Of a DNA stretch of 34,432 bases, positions 28,978 to 31,302 are shown piece by piece. This DNA is from Geobacter sp. (GTDB taxonomy: Bacteria; Desulfobacterota; Desulfuromonadia; Geobacterales; DSM-12255), in assembly GCA_009886125.1 (NCBI GenBank), contig VFJK01000101.1, positions 1 through 34,432 of the forward strand, given 5' to 3'. The notes below the pieces were generated by a model. That model was not told the origin of the DNA. It saw nothing but the letters and a program-made list of their open reading frames with translations, and did not search any database. The stretch's first letter is position 1; each line of letters begins with the position of its first letter. A program made the position numbers and the translations under genes.

Positions 28978-30582
28978 CTATTCGCAAAGATCAACCTTGA
29001 TGTCCCAGTTCTTGAGCTTCATAGTGCCGTTTCTCTCAAGGTTGAGGTGCATCTTGAAGGCGCGATCCCACAGCTGCGGCTCGTGACCGACCTTGCGTCT
29101 GAGGCAGTCTGCTTCAGCTATATTGAGATATTCGGTCAGCTGATCCCTGTATTCAGGGTGAGCACACTTCTCGATGATGCGACGGGCGCGATCCTTTGGA
29201 GCAAGACCGCGAAGGTCGGCAAGACCCTGCTCGGTGATGACGCAGTCCAGGTCGTGCTCAGTGTGGTCAATATGCGAGCAATGTGGTACCACGCAGGAAA
29301 TACCGGTTGGGTCAGTCTTGCTTGGGCGGCTTGAAGGGGTATGCATCATCTTCAGGTAGCCGTTGCGGAGGAAGTCGCCGGAACCGCCAAGACCGTTGAT
29401 CATCCTTGTACCACCAACAAGAGTCGAGTTGGCGTGTGCATAGATGTCGATCTCAACAGGAGTATTCATGGCGATACAACCGAGACGACGGATCGGCTCG
29501 GGAGCATTGGAGATAGAGAGGGGACGAAGAGTGATCTTATCGAAATATTTGTCCATGTTGGCGAAGAATTTCGGGAAGCCAGGCTCTGCGGAAAGCGAAA
29601 GCGAGCAGGAAGAGGCACAGTCAAGCTTGCCCGAGTCGAACAGGTCGAGCATGGTGTCCTGAAGAACCTCGGTGTAGACGGACAGATTATAGAACGGCCC
29701 CTTGGCCAGACCACCGATAACAGCATTGGCGATGGAACCGACACCTGACTGGATCGGCAGCAGATTGTCCGGCAGACGACCCGCCTTAACCTCTGCCTGG
29801 AAAAAATCGATAACGTGATTGGCGATCGCATCCGAGGTATCATCCATCTCGGTAAAAGCACGACCCTGGTCACGCAGCTTGGACTCTACAACAGCAACGA
29901 TCTTCTTCGGATCACAAGGAATGGAGGTGGAACCGATGCGGGAGTTGGCCTTGGTGATATTGAGCACCTGGCGATTCGGCGGAGTAAGCGGAGTAAGAAG
30001 GTCATGAATCCCTTCAAAAGATGGCTGTCCGGTGTTGATCTCGATAATGATCTTGTCGCACTGCATAAGAATTTCAGGAATAACGCCGCAGGATGAGGTC
30101 GGCACCAGACCACCGTCCTCGGTGATAGCCGAGCACTCGATAATGGCCAGGTCGAGTCTGCCTGTTGGTGAATCCTTGGTGTAGAAACCGTAGCCAAGAT
30201 CCTGGGCAAAGAGGGAGAGATGCTTGTCGCCCATACGGATGCGGCCTTCATTGATACCGGCAGCGATGTTCTTGCCGGTCTGGTAAGGCCAGCGGCGGTC
30301 GATCATATCATTTACGGCCCAGCGGTCTTCAGTCTCGGCACCGACAGAAGCACCGATGAAGAGATTGAACTTCCACTTGCCCTGGAGGTTGTTTTTTTCA
30401 ACGTGCTCGGCAACGGCAATCGGAACTACTTTCGGATAACCGGCCGGGGTGAAGCCTGACCAGCCAAGATTCATGCCTGGCTTGAAGAACTGCACCGTCT
30501 CCGCGGCAGTCATGACCTTGCTTAAAAGTGACTTGTGACGTACGCGATCCTGCAGGGTACCGTAATTCTTTGTGTGTGGCAT
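28978..30582 (-). CDS. Succinyl-CoA:acetate CoA-transferase / acetyl-CoA hydrolase family
   Basis: A 534-aa class-I CoA-transferase of the Cat1/AarC/acetyl-CoA hydrolase family. The catalytic glutamate is Glu305 in YTEVLQD (303-309), preceded by SGVGSIANAV (279-288), and the oxyanion loop is GLGGSGDFLRNG. In Geobacter, enzymes of this type (Ato) activate acetate using succinyl-CoA, coupling acetate uptake to the TCA cycle. Acetyl-CoA hydrolase is an alternative annotation and cannot be excluded from sequence. The start has GGAGG ten bases upstream. The gene is monocistronic, with the promoter at 30702-30730 and a terminator behind it. Confidence 0.9.
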   Translation of the reverse strand: MPHTKNYGTLQDRVRHKSLLSKVMTAAETVQFFKPGMNLGWSGFTPAGYPKVVPIAVAEHVEKNNLQGKWKFNLFIGASVGAETEDRWAVNDMIDRRWPYQTGKNIAAGINEGRIRMGDKHLSLFAQDLGYGFYTKDSPTGRLDLAIIECSAITEDGGLVPTSSCGVIPEILMQCDKIIIEINTGQPSFEGIHDLLTPLTPPNRQVLNITKANSRIGSTSIPCDPKKIVAVVESKLRDQGRAFTEMDDTSDAIANHVIDFFQAEVKAGRLPDNLLPIQSGVGSIANAVIGGLAKGPFYNLSVYTEVLQDTMLDLFDSGKLDCASSCSLSLSAEPGFPKFFANMDKYFDKITLRPLSISNAPEPIRRLGCIAMNTPVEIDIYAHANSTLVGGTRMINGLGGSGDFLRNGYLKMMHTPSSRPSKTDPTGISCVVPHCSHIDHTEHDLDCVITEQGLADLRGLAPKDRARRIIEKCAHPEYRDQLTEYLNIAEADCLRRKVGHEPQLWDRAFKMHLNLERNGTMKLKNWDIKVDLCE

Positions 30583-30609
30583 CTCCTACCTCCTGGGTTG
30601 ATTTTGGGG

Positions 30610-30628
30610 TTCACGGCATAGCCGTGAA
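30610..30628. promoter_or_regulatory. Hairpin in the CoA-transferase leader
   Basis: TTCACGGC, three bases, GCCGTGAA: a perfect 8-bp inverted repeat with a short loop, about 30 bases upstream of the start codon and close to the ribosome-binding site. It could be an operator or an mRNA stem-loop controlling translation or stability. Confidence 0.6.
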
Positions 30629-30690
30629 AAGCCCTATTTAAACATCTGAAATCCGTCTAAAATCTTTAGCACTAATGCGGTCTACACAAA

Positions 30691-30709
30691 AGTAGAACCG
30701 GATTCTACT
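30691..30709. promoter_or_regulatory. Operator candidate over the CoA-transferase -10 box
   Basis: AGTAGAA, five bases, TTCTACT: perfect 7-bp arms. The right arm contains the -10 element of the minus-strand promoter, so a protein bound here would block transcription. A third half-site, TCTAC, lies at 30681-30685. Confidence 0.6.
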
Positions 30710-30730
30710 GAAGGGGGTCTATTTCGTCAA
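30702..30730 (-). promoter_or_regulatory. Sigma-70 promoter of the CoA-transferase gene
   Basis: On the minus strand: TTGACG (30725-30730), 17 bases, TAGAAT (30702-30707). The start of transcription would be about 110 bases ahead of the start codon. Confidence 0.75.
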
Positions 30731-30765
30731 GCTAAAAATATAATGTTCTAACGCTTACTATACCG

Positions 30766-30794: not shown

Positions 30795-30828
30795 AGTACG
30801 GATTTCATTCATAGATCTGGAGGAGATG

Positions 30829-31302
30829 ATGAGCGAGCAAAATGATGTATGCTACACCTTCGAAGGCGCCCTTGAAATGGCCATCAGCATGGAGCATGAC
30901 GGCTTCAGGCACTATCTTGATGCTCTGCGCATTGTCAAGTCAAAGGCAGCCCGACAGATACTCAAAGAAGCTGCCCTCGATGAACTGGCCCATAAATTCG
31001 AACTCGAAAAAGCACTTGTTGACGGGCATGTAACCGATGGTGCTCTCGACAAACCCCTTCCAACTATGAACCTTGATTCAGTACTGGCCAAAAAAGAACT
31101 CAAGCCCGATTCGGACGCACGGGAAGCACTTGCGTATGCGATCCACCTCGAGAACGGTGCGATCCTTTTCTACAAAAAGATGGCAGGCGCCTGCGCCGGA
31201 GCTCCAATGGGGAAACTTATGGATCGACTTGTCGCTGACGAGAGCCGTCACCTCCAGCAGCTTGAGGATCTGTACGAAGAACATTTCATGACTGAAAACT
31301 GA
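30829..31302 (+). CDS. Ferritin-like diiron protein (rubrerythrin family)
   Basis: A 157-aa four-helix protein. The diiron ligand pattern is visible: Glu22, Glu52-x-x-His55 (DELAHK), Glu108 (HLENGAILFY) and Glu138-x-x-His141 (DESRHL). There is no C-terminal rubredoxin domain (no CxxC pair), so it belongs to the ferritin-like branch rather than classic rubrerythrin. The likely role is handling of peroxide or iron in an anaerobe; this is inferred. ATG 30829 is chosen over 30826 because GGAGGAG (30819-30825) is better spaced to it. The stop shares one base with the next start. Confidence 0.85.
   Translation: MSEQNDVCYTFEGALEMAISMEHDGFRHYLDALRIVKSKAARQILKEAALDELAHKFELEKALVDGHVTDGALDKPLPTMNLDSVLAKKELKPDSDAREALAYAIHLENGAILFYKKMAGACAGAPMGKLMDRLVADESRHLQQLEDLYEEHFMTEN

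Follow-up and report, generated by a model that had tools for sequence, protein, structure and literature searches.

A conserved promoter-overlapping palindrome and a leader hairpin upstream of the acetate CoA-transferase gene (ato) in Geobacter and its relatives

The control region ahead of ato, the gene for succinyl-CoA:acetate CoA-transferase, is a real and widely conserved module in a Geobacter sp. and its relatives, and it resembles a known kind of arrangement, in which an operator overlaps the promoter and is combined with a structured leader. The observations that establish this module are the promoter match, the palindrome, the conservation across the order in most genomes, the near single-copy occurrence of the element and the position of the leader hairpin. 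The reading favoured here, with moderate confidence, is that the palindrome is the operator of a putative dimeric repressor, accompanied by a structured leader, where we infer the binding of the protein, the sign of the regulation, the effector, the start site and the function of the leader. The usual presence of one element per genome points to a regulator dedicated to the use of acetate. Acetate is the key electron donor for the relatives of Geobacter in sediments, in bioremediation and on electrodes. Loss of Ato activity is reported to have left a mutant of G. sulfurreducens unable to grow with acetate alone (Segura et al. 2008, cited in PMC7894505). With a sharply defined candidate operator that is nearly single-copy, the regulator should be within direct reach of DNA-affinity capture, and such an operator offers a compact natural switch for engineering.

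The window, i.e., the whole stretch of DNA analysed (34,432 nucleotides), carries ato on the minus strand (28978..30582, 534 amino acids). The sequence-only reading had called the product an acetate CoA-transferase, and this identity holds, given that the protein scores 571.8 bits against the NCBIfam model NF053853 (cut-off 500) and also matches the Pfam families PF02550 and PF13336. The promoter that the same reading had described, TTGACG-17-TAGAAT overlapped by the arms AGTAGAA and TTCTACT, is likewise present on the minus strand, with the -35 box TTGACG at 30725..30730 (also seen in alignment A1) and the -10 box TAGAAT at 30702..30707, both recovered by a search for sigma70-like sites. These hexamers match the consensus at 10 of 12 positions with a spacer of 17, as is typical of a sigma70-type promoter, and they form the sole sigma70-like site in the 501 bases between 30400 and 30900, a count that is not significant alone when set against shuffled sequences (mean 0.6, sd 0.8). 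Directly 5' of the -35 box lies a conserved T-tract (30734..30738, minus strand), which corresponds to columns -29 to -25 with 0.66-1.86 bits.

The operator candidate itself, AGTAGAA-CCGGA-TTCTACT (30691..30709, with no strand assigned), is recognised by its inverted repeat, which overlaps the -10 box of the ato promoter, and by its conservation. Judged from the window alone it is unremarkable, since a repeat in a single sequence is weak evidence when the whole window holds 36 perfect inverted repeats of 7 bp (loops of 3-10), along with 12 (partly overlapping) perfect repeats of 8 bp; it is the comparison with other genomes that shows it to be non-random. Within the genome from which the window comes, the generic pattern GTARAA-N5-TTYTAC, at one mismatch or fewer, is not enriched (26 places vs 47 for the control), and the second exact copy of the generic palindrome (L198, on contig C161) lies within a long reading frame.

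The comparison drew on 80 related ato loci from named genomes (Geobacter, Pelobacter, Oryzomonas, Geomonas, Desulfuromonadales and similar), of which 79 were used (L107 has no upstream sequence), and L055 and L104, with 95 and 226 nt of upstream sequence, were scored as misses. The 19-mer AGTARAATCCGGTTYTAMT was found with two mismatches or fewer in 63 of the 79 upstream regions, and in none of 80 reversed and none of 400 shuffled regions used as controls. The sequence-only reading had staked its case on the conservation of the motif in orthologous promoters, and the motif is indeed conserved there, both by this count and by the matches of the promoter model R1 in 57 of 58 genomes, described below. 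Aligned on the palindrome, 65 promoters, that of the window included, all have TARAAT as the -10 box, and the spacer to the -35 box is 17 in 60 of them, 16 in four and 18 in one; alignment A1 retains 54 of the 65, after the removal by hand of 11 that were identical to a retained promoter at 52-62 of 62 positions. Mean information content over 51 non-redundant promoters reaches 1.84 bits in the -10 box and 1.68 bits from there to the end of the palindrome, with 0.54 bits in the spacer and 0.13 bits downstream, and the conservation of the right half-site is close to that of the -10 box.

What is conserved is an inverted repeat over the core promoter, in the manner of a repressor operator, and it is imperfect in many promoters, given that 27 of the 65 have C at position 1 and that the R5/Y15 pair is non-complementary (A-C) in 24. 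The half-sites share a degenerate position which is mirrored between them, with A in 39 and G in 26 promoters at R5, and C in 41 and T in 24 at Y15. Position 5 of the palindrome is also the third position of the -10 box, at which the textbook box has T and these promoters have A or G, with T in none of the 65. Positions 5 and 15 vary independently of each other (A-C in 24, G-C in 17, A-T in 15 and G-T in nine promoters), and this combination of mirrored degeneracy and independent variation fits a symmetric dimer on the half-site GTARAA and counts against an RNA stem. A hairpin formed by the palindrome in the RNA was, for its part, rejected on the absence of covariation at positions 5 and 15 and on the location of the left arm inside the -10 box.

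The two halves of the palindrome can also part company in evolution. The right half is degraded, while the -35 and -10 boxes are kept, in the f2 genomes G013, G016, G019 and G021, and also in G035, G046, G048, G121 and G129, these nine being a list of genomes rather than a count of independent losses. The right half is thus separable from promoter function, and it seems, from this comparison, to have a role beyond basic promoter strength. A separate observation concerns the four f2 leaders (L276-L279, from G021, G013, G019 and G016), all of which carry TAAAACTTCGGTTTA about 20 nt downstream of the degraded right half, possibly as a relic of a shifted operator or as a hairpin in the RNA, with UUCG as its loop.

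The element occurs close to once per genome, and it does so at ato. Of 58 genomes, 43 have the pattern TARAATCCGGTTYTAMT (one mismatch or fewer) once and four have it twice, which makes 47 with the pattern, and its backwards control yields three occurrences in total over the 58. The model R1, which represents the promoter by sequence only, matches 57 of the 58, the genome of the window among them (E <= 6.2e-5), and G037, the sole genome without a significant match, also lacks any match to ato at E <= 1e-50. Given that R1 was trained on these promoters, its matches on them arise partly by construction; the counts for AGTARAATCCGGTTYTAMT and TARAATCCGGTTYTAMT are free of any model. At E <= 8.5e-4 there are 59 matches of R1, 57 of which sit 24-144 nt upstream of an ato match (67 selected ato matches were used in this comparison of distances), and the remaining two are an ato promoter at a contig end in G021 and a site upstream of pta in G025. 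Across the order, 126 of 141 genomes match R1 at E <= 0.02, one of them (G077) at miaB. Across the class, at E <= 0.003, the matching genomes number 127 of 277, made up of 125 of the 141 in the order and two of the 136 outside it, and both of the latter matches lie away from ato and were treated as chance. Beyond the 58 genomes, the downstream gene was inspected in G077, G121, G125, G129, G140, G227 and G262 only, and of the 16 non-matching genomes in the order (E <= 0.003) G037 is the one in which the absence of ato was checked.

In genomes with several ato-like genes the element is usually found at one of them, the exceptions being G006, with a tandem copy, and G125, where it occurs a second time. 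Further matches (in G004/G012, G011, G038, G006:C48, G024, G051, G028 and G056) have no common context, the match in G140 was treated as chance, and that at miaB was treated as possibly so. The miaB match (L287, G077:C1:3215425-3215468) is a weak copy of the promoter and palindrome, with an E-value of 0.013 among the 141 genomes. The neighbours of ato vary by lineage, any one neighbour family being present at 36 of 81 loci or fewer, and neither the scan of the palindrome in the genome of the window nor that of R1 over the 58 genomes returned a second site that would hint at autoregulation.

The expectation that the motif would recur at the promoters of other acetate or TCA genes was not borne out, as the element is near single-copy, with pta of G025 the one case of this kind. 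Here TTGACC-17-TAAAATCCGGTTTTAAT lies about 130 nt upstream of the gene for phosphate acetyltransferase (TIGR00651, score above the cut-off), which represents the other route of acetate activation, and G025 is the one genome with a second copy of the element at this gene. The scan of R1 at the other 29 pta loci gave no site, and the pattern search at the pta loci fitted G025 alone; the pta loci compared number 30, out of 56 genomes with a pta match. By eye, the pta element (L190:1990-2027) is without the A/C-rich leader of ato. The motif is also missing from 26 upstream regions of sucC, which have 5-8 mismatches in 17 and whose closest sequences include GTAAAATCCCCTTGTCT (G028 and G050); these regions come from 26 of 29 loci, as L260, L265 and L272 gave no rows.

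Transcription of ato likely starts at 30693 on the minus strand, which is position 17 of the 19-mer, as suggested by its distance to the -10 box and by a near-invariant A (64 of the 65 promoters), and the resulting leader would be about 111 nt long. It contains the Shine-Dalgarno sequence GGAGG (30589..30593, minus strand, read from the sequence), preceded by an A/C-rich linker (30594..30609, minus strand), a conserved stretch in alignment A2, and by a hairpin with an 8-bp stem and a 3-nt loop (30610..30628, minus strand), of the form TTCACGGC-ATA-GCCGTGAA, 16 nt upstream of GGAGG. The hairpin near the ribosome-binding site, which had been noticed in the single sequence, proves to be a conserved feature of the leader by its position and its pairing. 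The third TCTAC half-site that had been linked to the palindrome (30681..30685, no strand assigned) is present in the sequence and not conserved, with an exact GTAGA/TCTAC in four of 64 leaders, that of the window included, and it probably has no functional role.

The evidence for the hairpin comes from a fold of the region and from the 64 leaders that the 65 promoters provided (L099 yielded none). Folded in segments of 25 nt, 56 non-redundant leaders gave mean z-scores, relative to dinucleotide shuffles, of -1.19, -1.67 and -0.65 in the segments whose 3' ends lie 10-20 nt upstream of the Shine-Dalgarno sequence, which alone are clearly more stable than the shuffles, and the remaining segments ranged from -0.22 to 0.18. 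Among 46 non-redundant leaders, 59% have a stem of 6 bp or more at the place of the hairpin, vs 10% of shuffles (maximum 22% of 100), and in segments further upstream the figure is 11-15%. Chimeras built from the 5' half of one leader and the 3' half of another have such stems in 34% (maximum 48% of 100), and, as the native stems are commoner than these, the arms match their own partner better than the arms of other leaders; for 5-bp stems the margin is thin, at 67% vs a mean of 51% and a maximum of 65% in chimeras. With 21 distinct 5-bp arm pairs among the 46 leaders, the hairpin is conserved by place and pairing and not by sequence, and about 40% of the leaders are without a 6-bp stem by the same measure.

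The stability of the whole leader of the window is ordinary (z -1.13), and in full-leader folds the Shine-Dalgarno sequence is on average paired more often than not, with a mean unpaired value of 0.32, and 0.49 in the window, which counts against a leader that simply holds the ribosome site open. Two further arrangements were considered and set aside. A toggle between the 3' arm of the hairpin and the Shine-Dalgarno sequence would need a 5-nt complement that is found in 30 of the 64 leaders only. Pairing of the 5' end of the mRNA with the Shine-Dalgarno region is modelled on pyrC-like switching, and here its partner would be GGAGGTAG; it occurs in the minimum-energy fold of the window, is absent from the centroid and shows no covariation, as an A is kept at position 17 even opposite a would-be partner that is C or A. 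A scan of Rfam gave no family, the single match (E 1.8) lying within the coding region and falling far short of the gathering score, and the predicted hairpins show, by eye, no consistent GGA in their loops, GGA being contained in the Shine-Dalgarno sequence.

Operators that overlap the promoter and serve dedicated metabolic repressors are a known general class, and the ato palindrome is like them in its place over the -10 box and the start, in its fixed spacing to the -35 box and in its metabolic target. It is unlike them in that no linked or autoregulated regulator gene was found for ato, that the site occurs about once per genome across the order and that its centre is as conserved as its arms. 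Given this, the mechanism proposed here is that a sigma70-type promoter carries a 19-bp palindromic operator, with the half-site GTARAA, over its -10 box and start, and that a putative dimeric DNA-binding protein, which is not the product of a conserved neighbour of ato, most likely occupies it. The bound protein would compete for the -10 box and the start with RNA polymerase, and would block it, as long as an electron donor other than acetate predominates, and release of the protein during growth on acetate would turn ato on, with which the greater abundance of Ato proteins reported for G. sulfurreducens on acetate (PMC7894505) agrees. The leader of about 111 nt, with its hairpin, A/C-rich linker and strong Shine-Dalgarno sequence, most likely serves to stabilise the mRNA or to hold the ribosome site open. 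A wider proposal, to which we give somewhat less than an even chance, is that an undescribed and unlinked acetate-responsive regulator acts at about one site per genome across most of the order, and that the operator-promoter module is movable, as at pta, and independent of the leader module, which is conserved in structure.

Several features count against the operator reading, namely that the searches turned up no regulator and no second site suggestive of autoregulation, that the central TCCGG is conserved to the same degree as the arms, which a spacer would not need, that the palindrome is imperfect in many promoters, and that a single site overlaps the start, with no tandem sites. As the centre and the start region are conserved like the arms, the main rival, unlikely as we consider it, dispenses with the repressor and takes the near-invariant stretch from the -10 box to about +3, with its CCGG discriminator and fixed start, as a sensor read by RNA polymerase itself, for example of ppGpp or nucleotides. 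GC-rich discriminators occur in stringently controlled promoters, and the (nearly) invariant TCCGG and start region, the nearly single site per genome and the lack of a linked regulator all suit such a sensor, which leaves unexplained, however, why the half-sites mirror each other with the same degenerate position and why the right half is lost where the promoter is kept. A leader that exerts the main control, with the hairpin and the Shine-Dalgarno sequence acting as an RNA switch or as a target of CsrA behind a constitutive promoter, is the least probable of the rivals, and gives no account of the palindrome in the promoter. The conserved position and pairing of the hairpin favour it, as does an ato-1 transcript reported at 0.03 of the wild type in a csrA deletion biofilm of G. 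sulfurreducens (PMC11934962); the presence of a 5-nt complement to the Shine-Dalgarno flank in the hairpin regions of only 30 of 64 leaders, the pairing of the 5' end without covariation, and the lack of an Rfam family and, by eye, of a consistent GGA loop speak against it.

Rather improbable, too, is the binding of the palindrome by an activator or by a known global regulator of Geobacter, such as an IclR of the GSU0514 type, HgtR or ModE, for which several sites per genome should be seen, where R1 nearly always finds one. This alternative draws on reports of GSU0514 as a repressor of sucCD and of HgtR as a repressor of TCA genes (PMC7894505), on the prediction of a ModE site at one of the ato genes in G. 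sulfurreducens (PMC2700814) and on the IclR protein L234 encoded in the genome of the window. The GSU0514-sucCD system of G. sulfurreducens sits at the same branch point as ato, from succinyl-CoA to succinate (PMC7894505), and it differs in that the upstream regions of sucC, at 5-8 mismatches in 17, are without the ato motif and in that the IclR consensuses, GKTYCRYW3-4RYGRAMC or TGRAACAN1-2TGTTYCA (PMC8222616), differ from GTARAA-N5-TTYTAC; by eye, GTARAATCCGGTTYTAMT is likewise unlike them. The ModE prediction is an earlier assignment of a regulator to ato, and, by its published description, ModE governs a regulon of multiple genes, most sites of which are missing in G. metallireducens (PMC2700814), unlike the ato motif, which is near single-copy and order-wide. 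RpoN (PMC2725144) and GSU1771 (PMC10599522) are also reported to affect ato expression in G. sulfurreducens. In the available portions of the open-licence Geobacter literature, the promoter and palindrome of ato are not described, and the core sequence appears only in unrelated work.

The genome of the window encodes two IclR-type proteins, L234 and L235. L234 belongs to the GSU0514 family, an assignment at family level only, and is without support as a regulator of ato. The symporter-linked L235 was rejected as a candidate because its presence is independent of the motif, among the matches listed, where the motif is intact in several g14 genomes that have only weaker relatives of L235 (best E about 1e-45) and the f2 genomes, with a degraded site, have an IclR of the L235 type. 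By eye, the L235 gene (L235:1339-2109, on contig C124) lies directly upstream of genes for a DUF485-type protein and a solute symporter, and it is plausible as a regulator of acetate uptake.

Finally, two minor observations concern the surroundings of the promoter. The intergenic region of the ato promoter in the window is shared with a divergent gene for a rubrerythrin-like protein of the ferritin fold (30826-31302, plus strand), a pairing that is found in five of 81 loci only. A GTATAC hexamer, missing from the window, lies about 10-15 nt 5' of the -35 box in many of the related ato promoters (for example at L035, L038 and L047), where it is possibly a further control site.
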